Below are positions 3,266-33,132 of a stretch of DNA of 33,132 nucleotides, one piece after another. Both the position numbers and the translations under genes were made by a program. The number at the start of each line of letters is the position of its first letter. Position 1 is the first letter of the stretch. A model generated the notes under the pieces. That model had not been told where the DNA came from, did not search any database, and saw only the letters and a list, made by a program, of their open reading frames with translations. The stretch is from Pseudomonadales bacterium (GTDB taxonomy: Bacteria; Pseudomonadota; Gammaproteobacteria; Pseudomonadales; Pseudohongiellaceae), in assembly GCA_028279115.1 (NCBI GenBank), contig JANQSV010000109.1, positions 1 through 33,132 of the forward strand, in the 5' to 3' direction.

Positions 3266-4246
3266 TCACAACTGGTTGCGCAGGATCAATTCCGCCGGAT
3301 AGGGTTTCATGTACCAGGATTCCGCGATGTAGGGATGGGGGTGTTTGCGGAAGAAGTGATTGAGCAAGGTGATCGGAACGATCAGCGGCACCAGGCCCAG
3401 GCGATAATCCTCGATCGTCCGCACGAGTTCCCGCCTGTCGTCCGCGGCCAGACTTTTCTTCAGGTAGCCCATGATGTGTTGCAATACGTTGACGTGCTTG
3501 CCGCGGGTCGCGGAAATTTTCAACACCGCCATGAGCCCCCGCAGATATTCGCCGGCGACCTGCTCGAGATCGGACTTGCCGGCGTCCGCGAGCAGTCGGC
3601 CGAGCGCGAGATATTGCGCCTGGTCGTGGCTCATGACGATCAGTTTGTGGCGGGCGTGGAATCGCGTCAGCGAAGCCGCGCTCAAACCGGCTTCAAACAG
3701 GGCGAACCAGCGCCGCAGAACGAACACGCGCTGGATGAAGTTCTCGCGCAATACGGAATCGCCCAGGCGGCCTTCCTCTTCGACCGGCAGCCAAGGAAAC
3801 TCCCGCATCAGGGCGTCGGCGAAAATGCCGCTGCCATCGCGCGCGGGCGTCTCGCCGCGCCATACCCGGACGCGCTCCATGCCGCAACTGGGCGAATCCT
3901 TTTTCAGAATGTAACCGCATAGTCCCGCCGCCCAATCCCGCCTGCGGGCGAGTGATTCCCGCAATGCCCGCGTGTGATCGACAGCCGGGTCGTCAATTTG
4001 CACACAGCGGATTTCGCCGCGTTCCGCGCACACTAGCCGGACGGGTTTGCGCGGGATGCCGAGGCCGATTTCCACTTCCGGGCAAAATGGCCGGAATTCA
4101 AAGTACTTGCCGAGCGTGCCGGTGATATACGAATGCCGCTTGTGACCGCCGTCATAGCGAACCTGATCGCCGAGCAGGCAACTACTCACGCCGACCGGAA
4201 TCTTCGCCCCGGACGCGTCTTCCGCCTCGTTTACATCGGGCTCCAT
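3266..4246 (-). CDS. DUF523 (TudS-like) and DUF1722 (YbgA-like) two-domain protein
   Basis: 326 residues, soluble. The N-terminal half is DUF523, the fold of the thiouracil desulfurase TudS, with the three conserved cysteines visible at C23 (SSCLLG), C55 (FCPEVEIGLGIPR) and C121 (KKDSPSCG) that hold a [4Fe-4S] cluster in characterised members. The C-terminal half (about 165-320) is DUF1722/YbgA, starting near HKLIVMSHDQAQYLALGRL and ending with the family-like PHPYIAESWYMKPYP. This fusion is common in gammaproteobacteria. A sulfur-removal role for the first domain is inference from TudS; the role of DUF1722 is unknown. The start overlaps the end of the upstream MBL gene by 16 bp, so the two are probably co-transcribed. 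Confidence 0.88.
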   Translation of the reverse strand: MEPDVNEAEDASGAKIPVGVSSCLLGDQVRYDGGHKRHSYITGTLGKYFEFRPFCPEVEIGLGIPRKPVRLVCAERGEIRCVQIDDPAVDHTRALRESLARRRDWAAGLCGYILKKDSPSCGMERVRVWRGETPARDGSGIFADALMREFPWLPVEEEGRLGDSVLRENFIQRVFVLRRWFALFEAGLSAASLTRFHARHKLIVMSHDQAQYLALGRLLADAGKSDLEQVAGEYLRGLMAVLKISATRGKHVNVLQHIMGYLKKSLAADDRRELVRTIEDYRLGLVPLIVPITLLNHFFRKHPHPYIAESWYMKPYPAELILRNQL

Positions 4247-5088
4247 TGTTCTGCTTTCTCTCCCGTGCGGTGGCGGCGCGCGCGCCCTTCCCGCTCGAGT
4301 TTCTCCAGATGCGCCAGCATGGTCCTCTCTGCCCAGCGATGCATGGACTTGTCGACATCGTCGTAGACGACCACCACCAGATCTTCCAGCGTACAGGTTC
4401 CGATGCCCGCCAGACTGCGCGCGATCTTGCTTTCCCGGCGCATCCGATGCTCGATCAGCTTGCCGATTTCCGCATGCGGATCATGGATCAGATTGCCGTG
4501 GCCGGGCGCGAGATAACGCAGCGGCAATTGCTGTAATTCTTCCAGGCTGTCGAGATAGTCGCTCATGTTGCCGTCCGGCGGCAGGATCACCGATGTCGTG
4601 CCCTGCAACACATGATCGCCCGTGAACAGCAACTGCTCTTCGCAAAGCAGAAAGCAGAAATGATTCGAAACATGCCCCGGCGTATGCAACATGCGGATCG
4701 TATATTCGCCGCAATCGAGTACATCACCGTGACGCCATTCGCGCCCAGGCGTAAAACTCAGGTCGTTGTAACCGTGTTCAGGCGCCGGCAGCCCCACCAA
4801 TTCCGCGCCGGTAGCGCACTGCAACTCGACCGCGCCGGGCGAATGATCGCCATGAGTATGAGTGGCCAATATGTACTCCAGCCTGCGGTCGCCAATAGCC
4901 TCCAGAAAACTCCGCAACTGGTCGCTATCCCGGGGACCAGGATCGATCAGACTAAGCCTCGATTCACCAATCAGATAACTATTCGTGCCCGGCCCCGTCA
5001 TCGGCCCCGGATTACGCCCCAGAATCCGAAACACAGGCACCTCGCACTCTGAAATACGCTCTGGAACTCCGGCAACGACTGTTCGCAT
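4231..5088 (-). CDS. MBL-fold metallohydrolase (LACTB2-like)
   Basis: 285 residues, no signal peptide, so cytoplasmic. The metallo-beta-lactamase zinc motif T-H-T-H-G-D-H is at residues 76-82, further ligands appear in HTPGHVSNHFCF and FTGDHVLQGT, and APGHG follows. The opening NPGPMTGPGTNSYLIG is characteristic of the LACTB2 / endoribonuclease-like MBL group, and the tail has the small winged helix-like region of that family. Known relatives act on RNA or thioesters; substrate here is not determinable. ATG at 5088 gives a family-length protein. It precedes the DUF523/DUF1722 gene in a two-gene unit. The 135 bp upstream (5089-5223) separates it from the sugar kinase and marks the left border of the chitin locus. 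Confidence 0.87.
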   Translation of the reverse strand: MRTVVAGVPERISECEVPVFRILGRNPGPMTGPGTNSYLIGESRLSLIDPGPRDSDQLRSFLEAIGDRRLEYILATHTHGDHSPGAVELQCATGAELVGLPAPEHGYNDLSFTPGREWRHGDVLDCGEYTIRMLHTPGHVSNHFCFLLCEEQLLFTGDHVLQGTTSVILPPDGNMSDYLDSLEELQQLPLRYLAPGHGNLIHDPHAEIGKLIEHRMRRESKIARSLAGIGTCTLEDLVVVVYDDVDKSMHRWAERTMLAHLEKLEREGRARRHRTGEKAEQWSPM

Positions 5089-5223
5089 GACAAAATCCTG
5101 TTTCCTTCAATGGTAAATAGGGCCAATAGCGCATTATGACAAACTCGCAACGGCTGCCCCATTTGAAACTGTGGGAGTTGCCGCCCTCGGCGCATGAGGC
5201 GGCCAACCGCGACCACTGTCGAG

Positions 5224-6276
5224 CTATGATGTCGCGACCGCCGCTTTCCGTTGCCAATCGCTCGCAGCGCCGAGCACGGCCAATTGCCCGTGTTCAACCA
5301 GACAAATGGGCACATTCATCAAGAACGGATTAACGGTCCCCTTGTTCAGAAACCTTGTCATGAAGGATTCATTGCGCCGGATAAGGTCCGATAGTTGTGA
5401 TAAGACTCCGCCAGCCAAATAAACACCTCCATGCGTTCCCGAAGCGAGCGCGAGGTCGGCCGTCATGCTCCCCAGCGCTCCACAAAAAACATCGATCGCA
5501 CGCGCGGCGATCGGATCACTTCGCGCGCGCGCGGCATCTGCGATGTCCGCCGGGTCGCCTAGCAAGGCCGCTCGCCCGGAAATCCCGCAAAGCGTCTGGT
5601 AAAGGGTCAAGAGACCAGGTCCGGATAAAATCCGCTCCATCGGCACATGACCGTCATCAGGCATCAGCACTTTCAGGATTTCCAGCTCAAGCCGTGACGA
5701 TGGCGCGAAACTCATCTGTCCAGCTTCACAGTCAAGCACGACCGGATCACCATTTCCGCATGGTACACGGATTGCCGCGCCAAACCCGGTTCCGGCGCCA
5801 ATTATGAGTATTGGTTGGCTGGCATTGCAGAACAGCAAACCATTTAAAGGTTCAACAACATTGGCGTCAATATGATCAATCCCATGCGCCAGCGCATAGA
5901 AATCGTTGATAATATTAACCGCGCTAAAACCTAACCGCTTTTTGATTTCGTCCACTCGAATACCCCATTTGAGATTGGAATTAACGACATTCCCACCGGA
6001 TAGGTATCCCGCCACAGCAATCGATATCCCACCAATGTTTGGCGTGTTGTGTTCAGTCAAGAAAAGCTCGATCAACTCCTCAAGACGCGCAAAATCAGCA
6101 CAAAAATATTTTTGGTAGCTTATTATCTCAGCTTGCGAATCCGACCCACCGGGAACATCCACAACAGCAAGTCTGGCATGCGTGCCGCCAACATCCGCGG
6201 AAAGCACAAATTGCCTTTGCTCCCGATGCCGCTCTCCAATGCGCCGGAAAAGACCATAATCGTTGGTAACAGTCAT
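5224..6276 (-). CDS. glk: Glucokinase-family sugar kinase, probable GlcNAc kinase
   Basis: 350 residues of the Glk family (hexokinase/actin ATPase fold). The phosphate-binding motif DVGGTHARLAVVDV is near residue 28, the catalytic segment INDFYALAHG near 120, the adenosine-side motif GAGTGFGAA near 157, and GGVYLAGGV near 290. The family phosphorylates glucose with ATP; in this operon, downstream of a sugar symporter and a SIS-domain deaminase, N-acetylglucosamine is the more likely substrate (inference; Glk-type kinases replace NagK in some GlcNAc pathways). It starts 9 bp after the symporter stop, so it is the last gene of a minus-strand operon. No typical ROK zinc motif is present, which separates it from NagK of E. 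coli. Confidence 0.82.
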   Translation of the reverse strand: MTVTNDYGLFRRIGERHREQRQFVLSADVGGTHARLAVVDVPGGSDSQAEIISYQKYFCADFARLEELIELFLTEHNTPNIGGISIAVAGYLSGGNVVNSNLKWGIRVDEIKKRLGFSAVNIINDFYALAHGIDHIDANVVEPLNGLLFCNASQPILIIGAGTGFGAAIRVPCGNGDPVVLDCEAGQMSFAPSSRLELEILKVLMPDDGHVPMERILSGPGLLTLYQTLCGISGRAALLGDPADIADAARARSDPIAARAIDVFCGALGSMTADLALASGTHGGVYLAGGVLSQLSDLIRRNESFMTRFLNKGTVNPFLMNVPICLVEHGQLAVLGAASDWQRKAAVATS

Positions 6277-6285
6277 TCCCCTCTC

Positions 6286-8022
6286 CTAATGCTGTTTTAT
6301 CGCCGCCAGAGATTCGGCAGGCGCCGGGCCGCGAATACGGACAATGACATAAGCGCCTGTCGCCGCCGCCACACCGAGATTGATTATTGCCCAGAAGACA
6401 TCGCCATAAAGCAGGAATCCAATACCAAAGAGAGTGCCGTAGGTGCCCGCGATCGCCGCGGCGGAGAGGCCCAATCCTTCGAAGAGTTCGCGCCGCGGGG
6501 CGCCTGTCGGCCATGCAATCCGCTTGAAACGGTTTTGCGTCTCACCGGACTCCGGAGACGTCAGCAAAGTAACGGCAACCCAGCCAATCGTGGTCACACC
6601 GACACCCAGCACATATTGCATCCAGTCAGCCATGTCCGGCCCCAGAAATTCGAGCCAGATATTAATCGCAAAAGAAATAATCATAGCCGAGATCTCACTC
6701 CAGGCATTAATGCGAGACCAAAACCAGCGCAGGAAGAACAACAACCCGGTCCCGGCGCCGATTGCGAGGAGAAGTTGGAATGCCTGCAAAGCATCTTCGA
6801 GGATGAGCGCGAAGGCGCCCGCGGCGACCATGAGAAGGATGGTTAAAAGGCGCCCGGCTCTCACTTGCTGTTTTTCGGATGCTTCGGGCGCGATAAACCG
6901 GACATGGATGTCCTTGACCAAATAGGAGGCCCCCCAGTTCAGGCTGGTTGAAATCGTCGACACATAGGCAGCCACCAGAGATGCCGCGACAATACCAAGA
7001 ACCCCCGGCGGCAGCAGGGACAACATGGCGGGATAAGCAAGGTCATTCTGAATGAGACCGCGATCAACATGCGGCAGAGCTGCCGCCAGACTGTCGAGAT
7101 CAGGGAAAACGATCAGAGACGCCAACGCCACCAGCAGCCATGGCCAGGGGCGCAGCGCTATATAGGCGAAATTGAAGAAAGCGGTTGCCGCCATGGCGTG
7201 GCGCTCGTCGCGGGCGGACAACATGCGCTGCGCCACATAACCGCCGCCACCGGGCTCGGCCCCCGGATACCAGGCACTCCACCATTGCACCGCCAAGGGC
7301 ACCAGCAATAAAGGCACAAAACTGTTCGGATCGGAAAAGTCGGGCAGGAAACTCTTTTTATCGACCACGTTCGGGTGCTCAATGAGCTGGCTCAAACCGC
7401 CCACATCAATATGGTTGAGAGCGAAATATGCGGCAAGACACGCGCCGACAAGCGCAACAACGAACAGAATCATATCCGTAATCAGAACTCCGAGCAGACC
7501 GCCAATCGCCGAGAAAGTGACGGTCACAAACCCGGCGACAAGCACAAGCTGGAGCGGTGAAACGCCAAAGAGAACAGCGCCGAATTTGATCGCCGCCAAG
7601 GTCACATTCGCCATGATCATGACATTGAAGAACAGGCCCAGATAGGCCGCCCGAAACCCTCTCAGAAAGGCTGCGGGTTTGCCGCTGTAGCGCTGTTCAT
7701 AGAATTCGATATCCGTGCTGACGCCAAGTCGCCGCCACAGTCGCGCATAGACAAAAGCCGTGATCATTCCGGTGATGAGAAAACACCACCAAGCCCAGTT
7801 TGCGGCCACGCCGTTGGATCGTACAAGGCTGGCAACAAGATTGGGCGTATCGGCTGCGAATGTGGTGGCAACCATGGACGCTCCCAAAAGCCACCAAGGC
7901 ATATTCCGCTCACCCAGAAAATAGGATGAACTGTTCCTCGATGCATATCGGCCAACCAGCAGGCCAATGACAACAATGGTTACCATAAGCCCCGCCACAA
8001 TTACCCAATCAACCGCCGCCAT
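6286..8022 (-). CDS. Sodium:solute symporter (SSS family), probable GlcNAc/amino sugar uptake
   Basis: 578 residues with about 13-14 hydrophobic segments, matching the SSS family. Visible family features: SSSYFLGERNMPWWLLGASMVAT near residues 31-53, the aromatic loop WWSAWYPGAEPGGGGYVAQRM in the middle, and a conserved VAAYVSTISTSLNWGASYLVKD segment near 350 with serines in the region that forms the second sodium site. The protein sits in the inner membrane and couples uptake to Na+. Its place between a NagB-II-type enzyme and a sugar kinase points to GlcNAc or glucosamine as substrate; this is inference, since known GlcNAc permeases (NagP, PTS) are of other families. ATG at 8022 follows a GGAGGAAAC-like ribosome site. 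Confidence 0.85.
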   Translation of the reverse strand: MAAVDWVIVAGLMVTIVVIGLLVGRYASRNSSSYFLGERNMPWWLLGASMVATTFAADTPNLVASLVRSNGVAANWAWWCFLITGMITAFVYARLWRRLGVSTDIEFYEQRYSGKPAAFLRGFRAAYLGLFFNVMIMANVTLAAIKFGAVLFGVSPLQLVLVAGFVTVTFSAIGGLLGVLITDMILFVVALVGACLAAYFALNHIDVGGLSQLIEHPNVVDKKSFLPDFSDPNSFVPLLLVPLAVQWWSAWYPGAEPGGGGYVAQRMLSARDERHAMAATAFFNFAYIALRPWPWLLVALASLIVFPDLDSLAAALPHVDRGLIQNDLAYPAMLSLLPPGVLGIVAASLVAAYVSTISTSLNWGASYLVKDIHVRFIAPEASEKQQVRAGRLLTILLMVAAGAFALILEDALQAFQLLLAIGAGTGLLFFLRWFWSRINAWSEISAMIISFAINIWLEFLGPDMADWMQYVLGVGVTTIGWVAVTLLTSPESGETQNRFKRIAWPTGAPRRELFEGLGLSAAAIAGTYGTLFGIGFLLYGDVFWAIINLGVAAATGAYVIVRIRGPAPAESLAAIKQH

Positions 8023-8039
8023 GTTTCCTCCGTGCAGTC

Positions 8040-8279
8040 TTCCTGATCATTCTTGAAATTCTAAATACGCCCGCATCGCGCATGATATCCAGTGCATTGG
8101 TGACAAGGGTGATTGGAAAACCAATCATATCCAAAATGACGGCGCGCGACCGCCATGGTTCGGATCGTATCCACGATTGGCCTTCCATCAGCAAAAACGC
8201 CGATGGCGGCCCCGCTTGCAGCCCAACGCGCGGCTTTGCCGTCGCCCGGCAAGATTCGTGCGCCACGCAACACATGCAT
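8040..8279 (-). pseudogene. nagA: Remnant of nagA (GlcNAc-6-phosphate deacetylase)
   Basis: On the minus strand the SIS gene stop and this ATG share bases as TAATG, the mark of a translationally coupled next gene. The product begins MHVLRGARILPGDG, like NagA N-termini, and continues with DTIRTMAVARRHFG, resembling the NagA helix before its GTTG-x-LPTL strand. About residue 55 the frame breaks; the missing piece continues in another frame as TLVTNALDIMRDAG, resembling the NagA segment L-P-T-L-I-T-D. Only some 240 bp remain of a gene that is normally about 1.15 kb, the metal-binding H-x-N/D motifs are absent, and the piece between residues 14 and the helix looks shortened. Operon position (deaminase, here, transporter, kinase) is where nagA would stand. 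Family assignment is from memory of the motifs, hence moderate confidence. Confidence 0.6.
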
Positions 8280-9316
8280 TAACGGGTCACCGTCACTTTA
8301 TTCAGGAAAGGTGGGTTGTCGGGATTCAGCCCCCGCTCGTGCGACAATGCATTAACCATGCGGTAAAAGGTCTGGATTTGCAGAACCGGGGTCAGCACTG
8401 GCACATTTGAGATCGAGAGCGCGGGCAGGTGGACGGCGCCCGGCAGCGCAGCACCAACGGAAAAGCACTTCGCGCCTCGTTCCGAAAAACTCTCCGCCAG
8501 TTCCCCATAGCTGTTTGCAGCTTCGTCCGACGGCACAAAAAACAGAACAGGAAAACCATCCCGCACAATTGTCATAGGTCCATGTTTAACTTCCGCGGCG
8601 CTAAAAGCTTCCGCGTGAAGCGCGCAAGTTTCCTTGAACTTCAACGCTGCTTCTTCGGCGACAGCAAGCCCAGCACCACGTCCGACAACGAACAGGCTTG
8701 AAGCCTCGGAAAAAGACGGCAGACATACCGACCAGTCGAGTTGCCAGGCGGATTCCAATTGCCCGGGAAGCAATCTCACGGCTTCAACGCCCGCGGCATT
8801 TCCCGTCAGGCAAAACACAAGATTGGCTAGCGCGGTCAATGAGCAGATGTAGGACTTGGTCGCCGCAACACTCTGCTCAGACCCCGCGGAGATCGGCAAG
8901 ATAAAATCTGCGATCTCTGCAAGTGGGCTCGAAAGGTCATTGGTAATCGCAATGACTCGCGCACCATTTCTGGCGGCGAATTCGGCTGATATGACCAAGT
9001 CATCACTCTGCCCGGACTGGGAAATACAAATAAAAAATGCATCACCCAACCGCATCGAAGATTGATAAATGGATGCGACAGAAGGCGCAAAGGAAACGAC
9101 GGGGACGCCAAGTTGGGTTTCAAATAGATATTTGCCGTAAAGCCCTGCATGGTCGGAACTCCCCCGCGCGCACATTAGCACAAAAGATGGTGGCCGAATG
9201 TTGAATTCCAACGCGATCGCCGCCAGCCCATTTTCCATATCCGTAAATTGGCTTTGCACCGATGAACTCGAACTACTTGCTTCTTTAAACATCAATGATG
9301 TTTCCGCGACTGACAT
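8279..9316 (-). CDS. nagB-II: SIS-domain aminosugar-phosphate deaminase/isomerase (NagB-II type)
   Basis: 345 residues with two SIS sugar-isomerase domains (about 30-170 and 195-330) and no glutaminase domain, so not GlmS. Motifs seen: ARGSSDHAGLYGKYLFE near residue 50, SQSGQSDD near 100, a Thr/Ser-rich SEQSVAATKSY near 145, and HAEAFSAAEVKHGPM near 235, which is the conserved E-x-x-H-G-P segment of the GlmS/AgaS/NagB-II group. In GlcNAc pathways of this type the enzyme turns glucosamine-6-phosphate into fructose-6-phosphate and ammonia in the cytoplasm. ATG 9316 has a good ribosome site (AAGGGG, 9323-9329 region). It is the first gene of the minus-strand operon nagB-II, nagA remnant, symporter, kinase. 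Confidence 0.85.
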   Translation of the reverse strand: MSVAETSLMFKEASSSSSSVQSQFTDMENGLAAIALEFNIRPPSFVLMCARGSSDHAGLYGKYLFETQLGVPVVSFAPSVASIYQSSMRLGDAFFICISQSGQSDDLVISAEFAARNGARVIAITNDLSSPLAEIADFILPISAGSEQSVAATKSYICSLTALANLVFCLTGNAAGVEAVRLLPGQLESAWQLDWSVCLPSFSEASSLFVVGRGAGLAVAEEAALKFKETCALHAEAFSAAEVKHGPMTIVRDGFPVLFFVPSDEAANSYGELAESFSERGAKCFSVGAALPGAVHLPALSISNVPVLTPVLQIQTFYRMVNALSHERGLNPDNPPFLNKVTVTR

Positions 9317-9431
9317 AGTATCACCCCTTGACCCTTACTGATCCGGCGCGTTATCAAAAAATGACAACGATATTTTTTGTAAAGAAAACTTTTTGCCTCG
9401 CAATTCCCCACTCGCTTCACGCGTCTCTTTA

Positions 9432-9690
9432 TCATCGCGCCATCCGACCATTATCAACCTTAAGGACCGCCCCACTTGCCGTCCGCCCCGCGTCACTTGC
9501 GAGATACGTCACCGCCCCAGTCACGTCACTCACCCGACCGACATGATCCGGAAACAACGGTCATATCCATGATCACAAGCTCCGTGCGCCCGCAACTCGC
9601 CGCAATCCCACCCCGCAACGCTTCCAACACACCACGAGCGCAGCGCGGAAATCACCGCAGATCCGAAGCCCGCTTTTGCACCTTCCGAAT
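9432..9690 (-). pseudogene. Remnant of a short-chain dehydrogenase (SDR) gene
   Basis: Positions 9551 down to 9447 read without a stop as PDHVGRVSDVTGAVTYLASD then AGRTASGAVLKVDNG, ending RMAR and TGA at 9432-9434. This is the C-terminal signature of classical SDRs (V-A-G-A-V-x-Y-L-A-S-D ... x-T-G-A-V-L-x-V-D-G-G). Upstream the frame shifts; fragments such as GFGSAVISALR and TELVIMDMT recall the SDR N-terminal half but the Tyr-x-x-x-Lys active site is missing. About 260 of the normal 750 bp remain. It fills much of the 420-bp divergent region between the deaminase and the chitinase, so that gap is not simply a long promoter. Confidence 0.55.
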
Positions 9691-9720
9691 AGTCGCTCTA
9701 AAATATGATCACGTAGTCAT
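9676..9720 (+). promoter_or_regulatory. Chitinase promoter with palindromic operator (copy 1)
   Basis: A sigma-70-like pair is visible: TTGCAC at 9676-9681, exactly 17 bp, then TAAAAT at 9699-9704. Directly after the -10, at 9705-9720, lies ATGATCACGTAGTCAT, two changes from the perfect palindrome at 16870. A factor bound here would cover the transcription start and repress. The ribosome site AGGA (9726-9729) and ATG 9737 follow. Confidence 0.65.
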
Positions 9721-9736
9721 TTTATAGGAAAAACCG

Positions 9737-11008
9737 ATGCAATCAAGGATTCTTCCCCGGCGACCAAGCCGCCTTGCCGGAAGCAGGCGCAAGGATAAAA
9801 AGGGTACGAAACTGAAAATGTGGCGCCTCGCGCTGATTGGAATGCCGCTGATGACCGGAAGCGCTCTACAGGCAAGCACACAAAACGAAAAGCCGATTAT
9901 CGCTTCTTACTATTCCAGCACAGGGTCATCTGAGAAAGTGGCCGAAATTCCAGCCGCCAAGCTTTCTCATGTTCTCTACGCTTTCCTTACGCTTTGCGGC
10001 GACCATCGAACGGCTGGTCCGGCTGCCTCGGCGCGTGTGGCGGCCGCCTGCGCGAATCAGCCGGACTTCACGGCAACCCGCATTGGCGGCCCTGCCGAGA
10101 CGGAAGAACTCGCGGCCTTCGAAACGCTCAAAGCGGAACATCCACACTTGAAAGTCCTCGCTTCGTTTGGCGGATGGAACCTGTCCGCTCCTTTCCGGCA
10201 AATGGCGAAATCAGATGCCGGCCGGCGGCGCTTTGTCCGCACAGCCATCGAAATCATCAAGGATCATCCGGCTTTTGACGGCATTGATATCGACTGGGAG
10301 TATCCCGGGGGTGGCGACAATTCCTCTCTCCCGCTTGGCTCGGACGAAACCGCAACGGAACGTTACGCCTTCCGGGCAATGATGCGGGAGCTGCGCATTG
10401 GCCTGGACCGTCTCAGCGTGAAAACCGGGCGATCCTATTCCCTCAGTGCGGCTGTCAGCGGCGCGGCCCGGCAGACCGCGTCGATCGACTGGGCGGGAAC
10501 AGCGCCTCACCTGGATATGGTCTTTGCGATGACCTATGACTTCGCGGTCGGCGATGGCGCCGCGACCCATCACGCCAATCTTTATCCTGTCCCAGGCAAG
10601 ACCGCACTCAGCGGGGTCGAGATGATTGAGAATCTTCATATTGCGGGCATTCCCGAGGACAAACTGGTCCTGGGCGCCGCTTTTTATGCAAGAGGCTGGG
10701 AAGGCGCTCGATATCGGAATGGCGCGGTGGTCACACAGGACGCGTCCCAATCCATCGGATCATTTCGTTTCCGGGATTTGCGGGCCAACCCGCCGGACGG
10801 GTATGAATATGCCTATGATACCGATGTGGAGGCGGCGTTTCTGATCAACCGGGAAACTGACGGTTTTATAAGTTTTGATGATCCGCGATCAATTGCCGCA
10901 AAAACGGATTTTGTCAAAAAAAGAGGTCTTGCGGGAATTTTTTCCTGGCAGATAGAGCAGGATGATGGCGCGCTTCTCGACGCCATACATCAAGGCCTCG
11001 CGGAATGA
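9737..11008 (+). CDS. Secreted GH18 family chitinase
   Basis: 423 residues. A GH18 TIM barrel fills most of the protein: IIASYYSSTGS is the first strand, KVLASFGGWN carries the S-x-G-G motif near residue 140, and the catalytic DGIDIDWEYP motif places the acid Glu at about residue 188. FAMTYDFAVGD and GIFSWQIEQDDG near the end are the conserved M-x-Y-D and final Trp segments. It hydrolyses beta-1,4 links in chitin. The start is uncertain: ATG 9737 fits the promoter and ribosome site but gives a basic 27-residue leader; ATG 9818 would begin a neat signal sequence MWRLALIGMPLMTGSALQA. Either way export is likely. It converges on the GH20 gene and has its own operator. Confidence 0.9.
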   Translation: MQSRILPRRPSRLAGSRRKDKKGTKLKMWRLALIGMPLMTGSALQASTQNEKPIIASYYSSTGSSEKVAEIPAAKLSHVLYAFLTLCGDHRTAGPAASARVAAACANQPDFTATRIGGPAETEELAAFETLKAEHPHLKVLASFGGWNLSAPFRQMAKSDAGRRRFVRTAIEIIKDHPAFDGIDIDWEYPGGGDNSSLPLGSDETATERYAFRAMMRELRIGLDRLSVKTGRSYSLSAAVSGAARQTASIDWAGTAPHLDMVFAMTYDFAVGDGAATHHANLYPVPGKTALSGVEMIENLHIAGIPEDKLVLGAAFYARGWEGARYRNGAVVTQDASQSIGSFRFRDLRANPPDGYEYAYDTDVEAAFLINRETDGFISFDDPRSIAAKTDFVKKRGLAGIFSWQIEQDDGALLDAIHQGLAE

Positions 11009-11147: not shown

Positions 11148-13571
11148 CTATGAACGGGTCTCGCCGCCGCGCAGGGGCTGCACCCAGTCAATCACCCAGA
11201 ATGGATCGATTTCAGCGCTGGCAAATTGGAAGCAAAGGTCGTGTTCACCGGCACGCGGCTCAATATCGCCTTCGATCGTCTCCAGACCAAGCCCATCAAG
11301 TCCCGCCAGGGGCAGCCGGGCGATAATGTCGCCCTCGCATGTATCCTGTCGAATCAGCAATTCACCTTCAGCCGTTTCCGGTTCGGGATGGGTAATGCTG
11401 TTGACGGCGTCGCCAACTTGAAAATTGAATGGAATCTGACCGATGCTCAGGCGCATGCCAGTTACATCATCAAGCCGCGCATCTTCATAAATCCAGCATG
11501 GATTGAAAATATCGACATTATAGACAGCACGCTCACCGCGAACCGGCCCGTCATCCTCCAGCCGAAGCACCAGTCCCTCACTACACATTTTCAGATCATC
11601 GTCTTCCCGGCGCTCAATGGTTTCAACTGTGAAAGTCCGTTCAACCGTATCGGCCAGCACACGACCATCATGAAAGGCATTTGCCCGGATGGTGACTGGC
11701 AGCGATTGTTCGAACGGCGCATCGAAGCGCGGCGAAGACGAGGTTGGCTCGGACCCGTCCAGCGTATAGCGGATTTCACCAAACCCTGTCTGGTTTTCCA
11801 GCCGCATCCGGATCAGATCGTTGCCCGCTGTGCGATCAATTCCGACATCGACCTGAAAAGCGCTGTCGGCGTAAGCCAGGCCAAGCGCCTCATATCGCCG
11901 GAACTGAACTGTAAGCCGTTTCAGGAACTCATTGAAATCCTTCGTTTCGCCATCCGTCCAGGCGATTTCGGCCACGGCTGACGCACGCGGAAAGGACATA
12001 TGCGTGACGCGCTCCCGCAGCCGCATATGCTCGGTCCAGATATTCGCCTGGATTCCCAGTATGTGTTTGGCTTCCTCATCGGTAAGCTCATCCGGCCGCG
12101 GATCGTAGACATAGATGTCTTCGAGTGTCTGAACATTGGGTTCGGGGCGCCCGGCCGGTTCATCCCGCAGGCTGCTTTGCGCAAAATCGAAATACAGCAG
12201 CGGCCCCGGGGTCATGACAACATCATTCCCCCGCTTGGCCGCTTCAATGCCGCCAATTTCGCCCCGCCAGGACATAACCGTCGCATGCGGAGACAGACCG
12301 CCTTCCAGGATCTCATCCCAGCCAACCAGTTTACGGTCGTTCTCATGCAGAAACGCCTCGATACGGCGGACAAAATAGCTTTGCAGTTCCTCTTCGGTGT
12401 TGACACCAAATTCACGCATGCGCTCCTGAACCCGCGCCGATGCCTTCCATCGATCCTTTACGGCTTCATCTCCGCCGATATGAATATATGCGCCGGGGAA
12501 AAGCGCCATGACTTCATCCAGGACATCCTCAATGAAGGCGAATGTCTCTTCCTCAACATTGTAGAGATGAGGATAGATTCCCCAATCCGCGCGGAGTTCG
12601 ATCTCTTCACCGGTCACGCCATATTCCGGATAGGCAACCAGCAGGGCCTGCGCATGTCCCGGCATTTCAATTTCGGGAACAACCGTGATGTATCGCTCGG
12701 CGGCGTAGGCCACAATATCGCGCACCTCTTCCTGGCTGTAAAAACCGCCATAGAGACGTGGTTTGCCAGTCACCGGGTCAATATCCGCCCGAGCCGCCTC
12801 GCCCGGCTGAACCCGATACGCTCCAACACTTGTCAATCGTGGATACTTTTTGATTTCCAGACGCCAGGCCTGATCATCAATCAGGTGCCAGTGAAACACG
12901 TTGAACTTATGCAAAGCCATCCAGTCAATGAACTGCTTTATATAGTCAGTGGACTGATAGTGACGCGCGCTATCGAGCATCAATCCACGCCAGACGTAAC
13001 GAGGCGTGTCCATAATCGTGAGCGCCGGAAGTTCAATCGCGGCTCTTTCGCTTTCAACGGATGTCAACATCTGCCAGAGTGTTGTTGCCGCATTGAACAG
13101 GCCGGCGCCTTCACCCGCGCCAAGGCTCACGCCATCATCGGCAACAACAAGCTCATACGCGTCGGAAGCCGTCGCTCCAGGCGCGGTCGCCGTCGTCCGG
13201 AAGACAATGCCGCCCCGCCCATTCCCGCCGGACTCCTGAACCGTCAACTCGAAATCAAACCGCGTGGTCCGCGCCATAAGATCAATAAAGTATTCAGCGA
13301 TGCGGATCGCCTCCGTATCCTGACCGGACACTTCGACCTGGATTGCATTGCTCACGAGGAAGGCGCCCCGCCCCGGCTTTATCACAGCCGGGGCCGGAAT
13401 AATGGATAAGGTATCGGCGGACACTGCAACAGGTGTCAGACCCCGGGAACCTGCCGGATCAGGCCGGGTCGCAGCCGACTGCTCGCCGGCGCACCCTGAA
13501 ACCGCAAGATTGGCGGCAACCATTGCGGCGCCCGCCATTGCCGTCCTCATCCCCGTTAACATTGTCTTCAC
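11148..13571 (-). CDS. GH20 beta-N-acetylhexosaminidase, lipoprotein
   Basis: 807 residues. The N-terminus has a lipoprotein signal: hydrophobic stretch then LAVSGC, with the Cys near residue 28 as lipid site, so it is probably anchored in the outer membrane or periplasm. A GH20b-type N-domain (about 60-175) precedes the GH20 barrel starting at YVWRGLMLDSARHY; the catalytic pair is in HIGGDEAV (Asp368-Glu369), and WHLIDDQAWRLEIKKYP and GWDEILEGG are further family motifs. After the barrel comes a chitobiase-type C-terminal domain (EIRYTLDGSEPTS) and a further about 150-residue beta-rich tail I do not recognise. It removes terminal GlcNAc from chitooligosaccharides. It follows the receptor gene by 107 bp on the same strand and is probably co-transcribed with it. 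Confidence 0.92.
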   Translation of the reverse strand: MKTMLTGMRTAMAGAAMVAANLAVSGCAGEQSAATRPDPAGSRGLTPVAVSADTLSIIPAPAVIKPGRGAFLVSNAIQVEVSGQDTEAIRIAEYFIDLMARTTRFDFELTVQESGGNGRGGIVFRTTATAPGATASDAYELVVADDGVSLGAGEGAGLFNAATTLWQMLTSVESERAAIELPALTIMDTPRYVWRGLMLDSARHYQSTDYIKQFIDWMALHKFNVFHWHLIDDQAWRLEIKKYPRLTSVGAYRVQPGEAARADIDPVTGKPRLYGGFYSQEEVRDIVAYAAERYITVVPEIEMPGHAQALLVAYPEYGVTGEEIELRADWGIYPHLYNVEEETFAFIEDVLDEVMALFPGAYIHIGGDEAVKDRWKASARVQERMREFGVNTEEELQSYFVRRIEAFLHENDRKLVGWDEILEGGLSPHATVMSWRGEIGGIEAAKRGNDVVMTPGPLLYFDFAQSSLRDEPAGRPEPNVQTLEDIYVYDPRPDELTDEEAKHILGIQANIWTEHMRLRERVTHMSFPRASAVAEIAWTDGETKDFNEFLKRLTVQFRRYEALGLAYADSAFQVDVGIDRTAGNDLIRMRLENQTGFGEIRYTLDGSEPTSSSPRFDAPFEQSLPVTIRANAFHDGRVLADTVERTFTVETIERREDDDLKMCSEGLVLRLEDDGPVRGERAVYNVDIFNPCWIYEDARLDDVTGMRLSIGQIPFNFQVGDAVNSITHPEPETAEGELLIRQDTCEGDIIARLPLAGLDGLGLETIEGDIEPRAGEHDLCFQFASAEIDPFWVIDWVQPLRGGETRS

Positions 13572-13678: not shown

Positions 13679-16534
13679 CTACAGCTTGAACCGCGCACCG
13701 AAGAAGAAACGGCGCCCAAATCGACCCTGACCACCAATCCGCTGCGGCACGGCAAAATAGTTTTCGACGGTGTCCTCGTCAGTGAGATTCAGGCCCTCAA
13801 TAAAGAGGGTCACAAATCCCCGGGTGTAGCTGGCATTGAAATCGACCTGCTGAATGCCTTCCGCGAACCGGTTCTGCCCGTTGGACACACCGAGGAAGTA
13901 ATCACTGCGATAGTTGTAAGAGATTCGGGTCGAGATCGAGCCTTTTTCATAGAAAATGCTCGAATTGACCGTATTCCGTGATTGACCGGGAAGACCCGCA
14001 AAGGCGGAGTCGGATACGGAGTTTTCAGAGAAGGTATAGTTTGCACTGACACCAAAGCCATCGAAAGGCTCAGGCAGATTATCAAGATAATGCAGCGCAG
14101 CCAACTCGAAGCCGTAGATTTTACCTCCACCACCGTTCACAGGCCGGGTCACGAGAACGTTCACGAGATTATTCGTGTCACCGCCGAGTGGCACGAACTC
14201 ATTTTCCTGACCACTGACCGTGAAGGAGAGAATATCCTTGTAGAAAGCAGCCGCGGAGACCGCATTCCCTTCGCCATAATAGTATTCGGCTGAAAGATCG
14301 TATCCGTTTGCCACAAAATTATCGAGATCCGGGTTTCCGCTATTAGCCTGCAAGGTCTCTTCAATCACTACAATCGTTGGCGACAATTCGCTGAAGGTCG
14401 GACGCGCAAGCGTTCTGGCCGAGCCAAAACGAACGATGAGATTTTCGGTCAGATCAGCCGCCAGGTTGAAACTTGGAAGAATGTCTGTCTGACTGTCATT
14501 CCGCATGAACGGCTCAGGCACGCCATTGGTAATCAGATTTGCTTCAGACTGCCTCTCAAGATGCGTAATCCGTGTACCTAGATTACCCCGAAGGCTCAGT
14601 CCGCCAATATCACTGGAGAAGTTCACCTGCGCATAACCCGCATAGATGTCTTCCGCGATATCAAAGAACTCGTCAATGCTTGTCACTTCAGCACCCGCAA
14701 AGACGGAGTCATTGCCGTTGCCTTTCCCGAAAAGCTCATCAATCGCCTCGGGATCAGGGATCAGGAAAGCGCTGATCGCATCCTCGAAGCCGCTGCTCAG
14801 GAAGTCATCCGGAGTTTGTGACGGATTGAGCTGACCGAGGTTCAGACCAAAAATGCTGATACCGTTTGCATCAAGGAAGTTCTGAGCGACATCGCCGAAG
14901 GAGGCGACCGTCTGATTGCGATCCTGCGAAACACGGCGGGATTTGAAGCCGGCCTGGACACTTTCGAAGAAACCACTATCGAAATTATAGGTCACATCAA
15001 ACTGGGTATGGAACTCGTCCTGCACCTGATCAAGATTGATGAAGTTGACGAAGCTGAAGAATTGACCCGTAGGATCAAGCAGATCGACGCCGACAGACTG
15101 CTGACCGTTTTCCTGTACGCTGAGATCGAAAGTTTGATCACCAAACCCAACTGTCTCAAAGAAGCGATTGTCGGATTTCACATTGGCGCGTGTATATCCG
15201 ACACTCGTGAAGACTTCGAAATTCCGACCGACCGGCGCCCAGGTTGTCCCAAGATCAACCGCAAATGTGTCAACCATGGAATCGCGATCAAAGGAATCAA
15301 GCGCTGTGGTGAAAACGTTTCCACGAAGACCGGTAAAGTTGACCCCTTCCGTGATCCGCTGCGGAATTGTTCCTGAAATGATCGTCTGGTTTTCAATTAC
15401 GGCATTATTGACGGGTTCAACGATATTGCCCGCGCCACCTGTCCGCAAAGGCAACAAGAGGAAGTTATTGTTTACACCCGTTTCCCGCAACTGCGAGTAA
15501 AGGCCGGTCAGGTGGAAGTTCAGGTTTTCAGTCGGCTGCCATTCGATGGCGCTCGATCCGCCGGCGCGCTCCCGTACAGTCGGAAAGTACGTGTTCGCCA
15601 GAAGATCCGGGAGGAACAGACCATCCGGCGATTGGATCCCCTGAATAACAGGGTTCCCATTCTCATCAATCGTTTCGATACCCTGAATCGTCGGAGCATT
15701 TTCCGGAAGCACGCCAAAACCGCGGGTTGGATCCAGCGTTCCCGCCGGAACCACACCAAAGTCCAGAACACCATCGGAGTCGAGATCGACCGGACGCTGC
15801 GAGAAGCTCAGCGGGCCGGCAGCGTCGCCACGGATGCTCCGTTCGGTGTATGCGCCAGACAAAATGACACCAAACTTATCGTCTGGCGACCGCCACCCGG
15901 CGCTGAGAGAGAAGCGCGGGTCGACTTCGTCGGCCAACGGCGCATAACCACCTTCAATTGATCCGGCCAGCAAATATCTGTCCGCCAAATCGAGAGGGCG
16001 GCGCGTCTTGAGAATAACCGTTCCGCCAACTCCGCCCTCATCAAGCCGCGCTTCCGGCGTCTTATATACCTCGGCAGACGAAATAACTTCCGAAGCGATC
16101 AGAGCAAAGTTGAAGCTGCGACTGGGCTGTTCGTCCTCAAACTGGTTGGATGACGCAATGAACTGCCCATTCAGCAAAGTCAGGTTTTGTTCGGGCCCCA
16201 GGCCGCGAATGGAAATCCGCTCGCCCTCACCCCGACTGCGATCAATCGCAATCCCCGGAATACGCTGAAGCGCCTCGGCAATGTTTTCATCCGGAAAGAC
16301 ACCGATGTCTTCCGCCGAGATGGCATCAACAATCGCATTCGAGTTTCTCTTGACGTCCTGAGCGCGGAGCAAACTTCCGCGAACGCCGATCACCTCCACT
16401 TCATAAATGACAGCTCTTTCATCTTCACGGATCTCATCTTGCTCAGCAACAGGCTGCGCGTCTTGCGCGTACATCGTGCCGGCCAGCATTGCGAAGACGA
16501 GAACGCTTGCGGATGATTTAAGGATATTCACCAT
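13679..16534 (-). CDS. TonB-dependent outer-membrane receptor, probable chitooligosaccharide uptake
   Basis: 951 residues. A signal peptide ends near MYAQDA. The plug domain follows with VIGVRGSLLRAQDVKRNSNA, IAEALQRIPGIAIDRS and RISIRGLGPEQNLTLLNGQ, classic of the large receptors used for sugar uptake in Xanthomonas, Caulobacter and Alteromonas relatives. The rest is a 22-strand barrel ending in GRRFFFGARFKL with terminal aromatic/Leu residues as expected for outer-membrane insertion. Neighbourhood (GH20 gene directly downstream, GH18 nearby, shared operator) makes chitin oligosaccharides or GlcNAc dimers the likely ligand; the ligand is inference. GGAGG about 7 bp before ATG 16534 supports the start. 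A weak hairpin followed by TTTT after the stop may partly terminate before the GH20 gene. Confidence 0.93.
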   Translation of the reverse strand: MVNILKSSASVLVFAMLAGTMYAQDAQPVAEQDEIREDERAVIYEVEVIGVRGSLLRAQDVKRNSNAIVDAISAEDIGVFPDENIAEALQRIPGIAIDRSRGEGERISIRGLGPEQNLTLLNGQFIASSNQFEDEQPSRSFNFALIASEVISSAEVYKTPEARLDEGGVGGTVILKTRRPLDLADRYLLAGSIEGGYAPLADEVDPRFSLSAGWRSPDDKFGVILSGAYTERSIRGDAAGPLSFSQRPVDLDSDGVLDFGVVPAGTLDPTRGFGVLPENAPTIQGIETIDENGNPVIQGIQSPDGLFLPDLLANTYFPTVRERAGGSSAIEWQPTENLNFHLTGLYSQLRETGVNNNFLLLPLRTGGAGNIVEPVNNAVIENQTIISGTIPQRITEGVNFTGLRGNVFTTALDSFDRDSMVDTFAVDLGTTWAPVGRNFEVFTSVGYTRANVKSDNRFFETVGFGDQTFDLSVQENGQQSVGVDLLDPTGQFFSFVNFINLDQVQDEFHTQFDVTYNFDSGFFESVQAGFKSRRVSQDRNQTVASFGDVAQNFLDANGISIFGLNLGQLNPSQTPDDFLSSGFEDAISAFLIPDPEAIDELFGKGNGNDSVFAGAEVTSIDEFFDIAEDIYAGYAQVNFSSDIGGLSLRGNLGTRITHLERQSEANLITNGVPEPFMRNDSQTDILPSFNLAADLTENLIVRFGSARTLARPTFSELSPTIVVIEETLQANSGNPDLDNFVANGYDLSAEYYYGEGNAVSAAAFYKDILSFTVSGQENEFVPLGGDTNNLVNVLVTRPVNGGGGKIYGFELAALHYLDNLPEPFDGFGVSANYTFSENSVSDSAFAGLPGQSRNTVNSSIFYEKGSISTRISYNYRSDYFLGVSNGQNRFAEGIQQVDFNASYTRGFVTLFIEGLNLTDEDTVENYFAVPQRIGGQGRFGRRFFFGARFKL

Positions 16535-18318: not shown

Positions 18319-19368
18319 ATGCGCCCAACAATTCGAGACGTTGCCAAGCTCGCCGGTGTGTCTGCAAAAACAGTCTCTAGAACCATCAATGATGAATCGA
18401 CTGTTCGCCCACAGACCAAAGAGAAGGTCAGAGCGGCAATCCAAGAGCTAAAGTTTCATCCAGATCTCTCGGCTCGCGATCTGCGCGGCAACACATCTTA
18501 TTCAATTGGTCTTGTTTATGCCAACCCAAATGCCAACTATGTCATAAGCTTACAGAAAGGTACACTAAAACGTTGCCGAGAAGTTGGCTACGGACTTCAG
18601 ATTTTCCCATTTGATACATCCGATATGGATGTTGAAATGCTTACCAATCTTCTGTCCAAGTCACGCTTGGCAGGTTTGGTTTTAGCCCCTCCGATGTCCG
18701 AAAACCGTGAATTGCGCGAAGCGCTAAACAAGCTGGATATTCCATTTGTTGGAATCATTTCAAGTACGACTGAAGAGGCCTTATCAGAAAATACTGTCGA
18801 AAAAGTCGTTGATATCGTACTTGAAGATGAAAAGGCGGCATTTGAGATTACAGAGCACTTGATCTCAATCGGTCATAGAAGGATCGCATTCCTGCCAGGA
18901 GATACATTGCATGGTTCAACTCGAGCTCGATTAAGAGGATACAGATCTTGTCTACAGAGTTTCGGCTTTGACGTACGATCTGAACTTATTCCCGACGGCG
19001 ACTACAGCTTTTCATCAGGTTTTAAGAGAGCTGGAACGCTGCTCGCAATATCTAACCCGCCGACAGCAATAATTGGCTGCAATGATGAGATCGCATGTGG
19101 AGCGCAAATGGCAGTCATCAGCCAAGGAGTAAGAGTTCCCAGCGACGTATCGATTGCGGGTTTCGAAGACAGCCCGTTCTCCAAACACACCTATCCGCAC
19201 ATAACGACGGCGCGCCAGCCAACAGAAGGGCTCGGTCACATGGCCGCTTCGGAACTCCTCAAACTGGTTCGGCCGACGAATGACCATAAAGCATCGCCCA
19301 AACGAGCCATCCGTCTCAAACCGGAGCTGATTATCAGAGGATCGACAAGTGTCAGATCAAAGCAGTAA
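18319..19368 (+). CDS. LacI-family transcriptional regulator of the chitin/GlcNAc locus
   Basis: 349 residues. The N-terminal helix-turn-helix reads TIRDVAKLAGVSAKTVSRTI with the hinge VRAAIQELKFHPDLSARDLRG, then a periplasmic-binding-protein-like sugar sensor with YSIGLVYANPNANYVISLQK, LISIGHRRIAFLPGD, AIIGCNDEIACGAQ and VPSDVSIAGFEDSPFSKHTYP, all canonical LacI/GalR segments. Ribosome site GGAG is at 18304-18307. It most likely binds the three 16-bp palindromes with central CG found at the chitinase, receptor and PP2C promoters, releasing them with a GlcNAc or chitobiose derivative (inference). No copy of the palindrome lies directly before this gene; it could be read from the PP2C promoter, although an IS remnant lies between. 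Confidence 0.9.
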   Translation: MRPTIRDVAKLAGVSAKTVSRTINDESTVRPQTKEKVRAAIQELKFHPDLSARDLRGNTSYSIGLVYANPNANYVISLQKGTLKRCREVGYGLQIFPFDTSDMDVEMLTNLLSKSRLAGLVLAPPMSENRELREALNKLDIPFVGIISSTTEEALSENTVEKVVDIVLEDEKAAFEITEHLISIGHRRIAFLPGDTLHGSTRARLRGYRSCLQSFGFDVRSELIPDGDYSFSSGFKRAGTLLAISNPPTAIIGCNDEIACGAQMAVISQGVRVPSDVSIAGFEDSPFSKHTYPHITTARQPTEGLGHMAASELLKLVRPTNDHKASPKRAIRLKPELIIRGSTSVRSKQ

Positions 19369-22956: not shown

Positions 22957-23150
22957 TGCCATCCCTAGCGCGAAATTATTGATTTCGTCAACGCCCGGTC
23001 TCGACATCCATGTCGAGCCGTTCGTCCAACCACCGAGCACAGCTCGGTGTCGCTCGGCCTGCGCATGAAGCTGCGCTTCATAAACGCTTGGCCTCGCCCC
23101 TCAAAAAGCTTTGCTTTTTGTCGGCTGCGCCGACCGGACCTCACCCCGCT
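22957..23150. repeat. Hairpin-chain repeat, copy 1
   Basis: A row of short palindromes: 23000-23017 (CTCGACAT/ATGTCGAG), 23033-23047 (CCGAGC/GCTCGG), 23065-23081 (ATGAAGC/GCTTCAT), 23102-23120 (CAAAAAGC/GCTTTTTG) and 23120-23134 (GTCGGC/GCCGAC). The same frame of sequence recurs at 24091-24235, and the ATGAAGC hairpin recurs in the elements at both window ends. It overlaps the 3' end of the DUF1244 gene. Confidence 0.8.
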
Positions 23151-24090: not shown

Positions 24091-24235
24091 TTGCACATGC
24101 CATCCTTAGCGCGACTTCAGTTGCTTCGACTACGTCCAGTCTCGCCACCCATGGCGAGCCGTTCGGCCCTCAAGAAGCTGCGCTTCTTGTCGGCTGCGCC
24201 GACCAGGCCTCACCCTCGCACGCCCGCTGCACGCT
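24091..24235. repeat. Hairpin-chain repeat, copy 2
   Basis: Same arrangement as 22957-23150: CATGCCATCC start, then palindromes at 24141-24158 (CTCGCCA/TGGCGAG), 24171-24189 (CAAGAAGC/GCTTCTTG) and 24189-24203 (GTCGGC/GCCGAC). Two hairpins of copy 1 are missing. Stem bases differ from copy 1 mostly in complementary pairs. With 24025-24066 it accounts for most of the 563-bp gene-free stretch 23757-24319. Confidence 0.8.
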
Positions 24236-32955: not shown

Positions 32956-32980
32956 GGGAAATACTATCACGCCCAGATTT

Positions 32981-33132
32981 TTGTGGCTTCGATCCGTCGC
33001 CGTCGGGTGGCGCGGGGTTTAGCGGACGCTGTAAATACGGCCCAGCCGCCAAGCACAGCTTGGCGTCGTTCCGGCTGCGCATGAAGCTGCGCTTCATAAA
33101 CGCTTGCCTCCACCCCTGTACGCTTCGGCCCC
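32981..33132 (-). repeat. MITE-like element, copy B (cut by the window edge)
   Basis: The reverse complement of 32981-33127 matches 1573-1722 closely, including the hairpins at 33048-33064 (GCCAAGC/GCTTGGC) and 33081-33097 (ATGAAGC/GCTTCAT) and the outer GTGGCTTCGATCCGTCGCCG. The segment corresponding to the right terminal inverted repeat of copy A is more diverged here (33005-33030). The other end is outside the window. The frame on the minus strand that starts MKRSFMRSRNDAKLCLAAG is repeat sequence, not a gene. Confidence 0.75.

Follow-up and report, generated by a model that had tools for sequence, protein, structure and literature searches.

Gene content of the window

The window, a stretch of 33,132 nucleotides, is the entire contig C187 in the draft genome of an uncultured bacterium (3.35 Mb in 424 contigs, 92% complete, 3.5% estimated contamination). 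It carries a gene set recognizable as serving chitin and GlcNAc: a nagB-II gene, a symporter and a kinase, together with GH18 and GH20 proteins, a TonB receptor and a LacI regulator. On the minus strand, the order is nagB-II (9316–8279), a gap, an SSS symporter (8022–6286) and a glucokinase-family kinase (6276–5224). The protein-coding features are as follows.

8279–9316, minus strand: nagB-II, SIS-domain glucosamine-6-phosphate deaminase, intact (best family NF046059 at 310.7 bits, below the cut-off of 430)
6286–8022, minus strand: sodium:solute symporter, SSS family, intact (PF00474, 7e-32; TIGR00813)
5224–6276, minus strand: glucokinase-family sugar kinase, candidate amino-sugar kinase, intact (PF02685, 4e-84; PRK12408 above cut-off)
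9737–11008, plus strand: GH18 chitinase-family protein, divergent from the operon (PF00704)
11148–13571, minus strand: GH20 beta-N-acetylhexosaminidase (PF00728, 4e-116)
13679–16534, minus strand: TonB-dependent receptor (PF07715)
18319–19368, plus strand: LacI-family regulator, candidate NagR/NagI (PF00356, PF13377)

Its best family match, NF046059, and its retained conserved columns mark the deaminase as a predicted NagB-II, and its homologs include SIS deaminases and isomerases of solved structure. The symporter likely brings GlcNAc or a similar sugar across the inner membrane. A scan of positions 4200–9800 returned no more promoters than shuffled sequences did, and a weak excess of terminators over shuffles.

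The nagA remnant

No intact gene occupies positions 8040–8279, in agreement with the sequence-only reading of this DNA; the minus strand holds two overlapping short frames, of 72 aa (8061–8279) and 88 aa (8009–8275). The junction with the deaminase gene is the TAATG described in that reading, with the nagB-II TAA (8281–8279) overlapping an ATG (8279–8277). Taken alone, neither frame matched a Pfam or NCBIfam family, and PDB searches with each gave matches that were absent or at chance level. Such single-frame searches are uninformative here, because a frameshift splits the homology. We distinguished two parts between nagB-II and the symporter.

8072–8276, minus strand: nagA remnant covering NagA profile positions ~47–110, with one +1 frameshift near 8129 and eroded conserved motifs (frameshift-aware profile alignment)
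8023–8071, minus strand: short residual stretch separating the remnant from the symporter start; a ribosome-binding-like GGAGG stands just before the ATG at 8022

The alignment used a position-specific NagA profile built from 91 proteins, comprising those of 89 related loci and the two further copies from this genome described below. With frameshifts allowed, the DNA from 8276 to 8072 aligned to NagA positions 47–110 through the single +1 shift, scoring 41.4 bits. The remnant translation reads 'HVLRGARILPGDG..ASGAA.GVFADGRPIVDTIRTMAVARRHFG/MIGFPITLVTNALDIMRDA', to be set against 'HDLQGGWLLPGFID..VNGGG.GVLFNDDPTVEGIRRIGEAHRRFGTTGFLPTLISDDLDVMRRA' in the NagA consensus. The best score was 26.9 bits among 2000 dinucleotide shuffles and 25.3 bits among 1618 other windows of the contig; this contig and two sibling contigs also supplied 1500 random windows, none of which reached 41.4 bits, the highest being one at 37.3 bits. 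The suggested alignment of the two frames to NagA proteins thus gave one continuous, frameshifted match. The same alignment recognized no NagA sequence in 8023–8071. By eye, the second half had seemed to match the NagA motif 'LVTDAMPVVG', a reading that was dropped when the profile alignment placed this half at 'GFLPTLISDDLDVM'.

The position of the remnant is that of nagA in related loci: among 80 public loci with a related nagB-II, 79 have nagA immediately after it, and the remaining locus is cut off by the end of its contig. The stretch between nagB-II and the symporter is a real, unreadable remnant of nagA. The first residues had been read as NagA-like; the best-scoring alignment puts them around NagA position 47 instead of at the N-terminus proper. 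Only when gaps are made very cheap do they fall at the N-terminal end (NagA positions 3–14).

Approximately 315 of 380 NagA codons are missing from the remnant. The conserved metal and active-site residues H129, E131, H143, H195, H216, D248, H251, and D274, located past position 110 without exception, are absent, and the frameshift near 8129 interrupts the reading frame, so that the remnant lacks both the residues and the uninterrupted frame of a functional NagA. We then scored the 27 covered positions at which conservation across NagA proteins is at least 90%. Of these, 9 are retained in the remnant, as against 26 in the C74 NagA and 27 in the C360 NagA (the two further copies). The adjoining nagB-II has 91 columns with conservation of 95% or more and keeps 85. 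Unselected sequence loses conserved residues at scattered sites, while a missing base or a misjoin leaves the residues intact. The erosion of the remnant (9/27) beside a conserved nagB-II (85/91) points to relaxed selection on the remnant, and not to a sequencing slip. The proposal that nagA decayed by a frameshift and deletions, with the other genes of its operon left intact, is borne out by the alignment and by these counts.

Intact nagA genes and the probable cause of the loss

A search of the same genome revealed two intact, full-length nagA genes, on contigs C360 and C74 (one at 7.5e-98 and the other at 7.6e-90, both above the NCBIfam nagA cut-off and without internal stops). The C360 gene adjoins a second nagB-II, a nagK of the NF046058 NagK type and another SSS symporter. 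Elsewhere in the genus, nine genomes have the C360 type of nagB-II and ten its nagA; where measured, the C360 nagA is 67–78% identical to the nagB-II-adjacent nagA genes of other genus members, and it nests among these in a tree. The C74 gene is solitary. We considered it as the relocated original partner of the window operon; in the tree, its long branch groups with further long branches, and this join was flagged as unsafe. By reading, its contig (L016, 223–3528) also carries genes for an enolase-superfamily dehydratase-like protein, an aldo/keto-reductase-like protein and an IclR-type regulator, which suggests a separate sugar-acid cluster.

All three contigs carry genus-typical genes. The window recR is 84–86% identical to its counterparts in same-genus genomes and the COQ7 on C74 is 93% identical to that of a same-genus genome, each being single-copy here. 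These markers fit an origin of the window, C360 and C74 in one organism, an assignment based on marker similarity, not on linkage, in a 424-contig draft.

GlcNAc-6-P is a soluble cytosolic intermediate and the substrate of NagA, so a deacetylase encoded anywhere in the genome suffices. With the C360 and C74 copies above cut-off, the GlcNAc pathway is probably still complete in this genome. The first alternative offered by the sequence-only reading, a second nagA elsewhere, was found to be correct; its statement that GlcNAc-6-P could not reach NagB-II for want of a deacetylase does not stand beside two intact nagA genes, and a dying pathway is an unneeded reading given these copies. The case shows why a missing step in one operon is no ground for calling a pathway broken until the rest of the genome has been searched.

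We consider it very probable that nagA became a pseudogene through redundancy, in a second chitin/GlcNAc gene set, with the loss covered by the two intact copies. The window would represent a second set, of a type otherwise unseen in the genus, whose own nagA turned into a pseudogene: through a frameshift of one base and large deletions at either end the missing codons would have been lost, and the remainder would have drifted. The loss would be tolerated because intact NagA is encoded elsewhere, by the genus-typical nagB-II/nagA/nagK/symporter cluster on C360 and by the solitary C74 gene, both copies presumably being expressed and active. GlcNAc-6-P from the uptake and kinase steps of the window would be deacetylated in the cytosol by the C360 or C74 NagA, and the resulting GlcN-6-P could be used by either NagB-II. 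Redundancy may thus have permitted the loss. Read in this manner, the locus offers a clear natural case in which one of two sugar gene sets lost a redundant step; no general view is changed by it.

A different account, also raised from the sequence alone, is that the operon shifted to glucosamine or a chitosan-derived sugar, for which no deacetylase is needed, and that nagA was lost along with its substrate flow. It would be in keeping with the glucokinase-family kinase, the intact deaminase and a symporter that resembles genus symporters in non-nag neighborhoods. However, GH18 and GH20 enzymes, both encoded nearby, release acetylated sugar, and a substrate switch is unneeded with two intact nagA genes; we keep this account as an unlikely rival. 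A fuller form, in which the operon was re-specialized for glucosamine from chitosan by recruiting the symporter and the kinase, dropped nagA and left GlcNAc to the C360 cluster, appears distinctly unlikely. An assembly or sequencing error, in which the draft collapsed a full-length nagA that the organism has at this position, could be suspected in a draft, metagenome-type assembly with dispersed repeats near contig ends; it is very unlikely, since 18 of 27 conserved residues are lost at scattered sites, a pattern that no indel or misjoin can yield, while the adjacent nagB-II is conserved. That the leftover frame now yields a small working protein, or serves as a leader for translational coupling to the symporter, is most improbable: the 88-aa frame overlaps the symporter start and the TAATG junction is retained, but neither frame matches a family, the symporter has its own GGAGG site and no relative is known to have the same leftover.

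Origin of the gene set and comparison with known systems

Returning to nagA loss through redundancy, we considered where the window set came from. Its nagB-II is 46% identical to that of C360, and no copy closer than 48% was found in any other of 84 genomes of the genus. By these identities, the set looks like an additional one, separately acquired and not a recent duplicate. Since this nagB-II type is absent from the other genus genomes, no relative shows the decay, which is undatable. A search for the empty insertion site in same-genus genomes led to no site, because they do not share the gene order upstream of the fumarase. Four further genomes of the genus encode symporters 52–59% identical to that of the window; two of these, in L132 (5047–6837) and L133 (6047–7837), lie beside a glutathione-reductase-like gene, away from nag genes, and the 80 nagB-II loci contain no counterpart of the window symporter.

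The C360 cluster encodes the same enzymatic steps as the window (nagB-II, nagA, a kinase and an SSS symporter). It differs in belonging to a distinct lineage, as judged from the nagB-II identity, in its intact nagA, and in its NagK-type kinase where the window has one of the glucokinase family.

The nagB-II–nagA operons of Xanthomonas, Lysobacter and Stenotrophomonas (nagPIBAF) have a LacI regulator in common with the window (PMC13055268), whose LacI protein is 42–51% identical to those encoded near nagB-II in Xanthomonadales in our neighborhood table. A GH20 protein, a TonB receptor and a glucokinase-family kinase often lie near these operons, as they do here. In contrast, nagA directly follows nagB-II in them where the window has the remnant, an MFS permease is reported where the window has an SSS symporter, and their nagB-II is only ~50% identical to that of the window.

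In S. maltophilia, growth on GlcNAc partly persists after deletion of nagA, by means of nagA2 elsewhere in the genome, and only the nagA/nagA2 double mutant loses it (PMC13055268). By analogy, the situation in the window would match this redundancy, in that a nagA outside the operon covers the loss of the operon copy. The S. maltophilia case is a laboratory deletion with nagA2 as the backup, whereas the window holds a natural pseudogene and its genome two candidate spare copies.

Copies of a dispersed repeat were observed in the window at 1577–1724, 23026–23101 and 32980–33127, one of them at the contig end. They include a 148-nt inverted pair, 89% complementary, and further copies of 76–78 nt at 83–84%; the repeat is probably a mobile or REP-like noncoding element that broke the assembly. 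A second, direct repeat of 53 nt (23094–23146 and 24163–24215, 87% identical) lies next to neighboring genes. On another metagenome contig (L063, 1076–2172), a nagA beside nagB-II matches in two pieces in different frames, and may be a further frameshifted nagA or reflect a low-coverage error.
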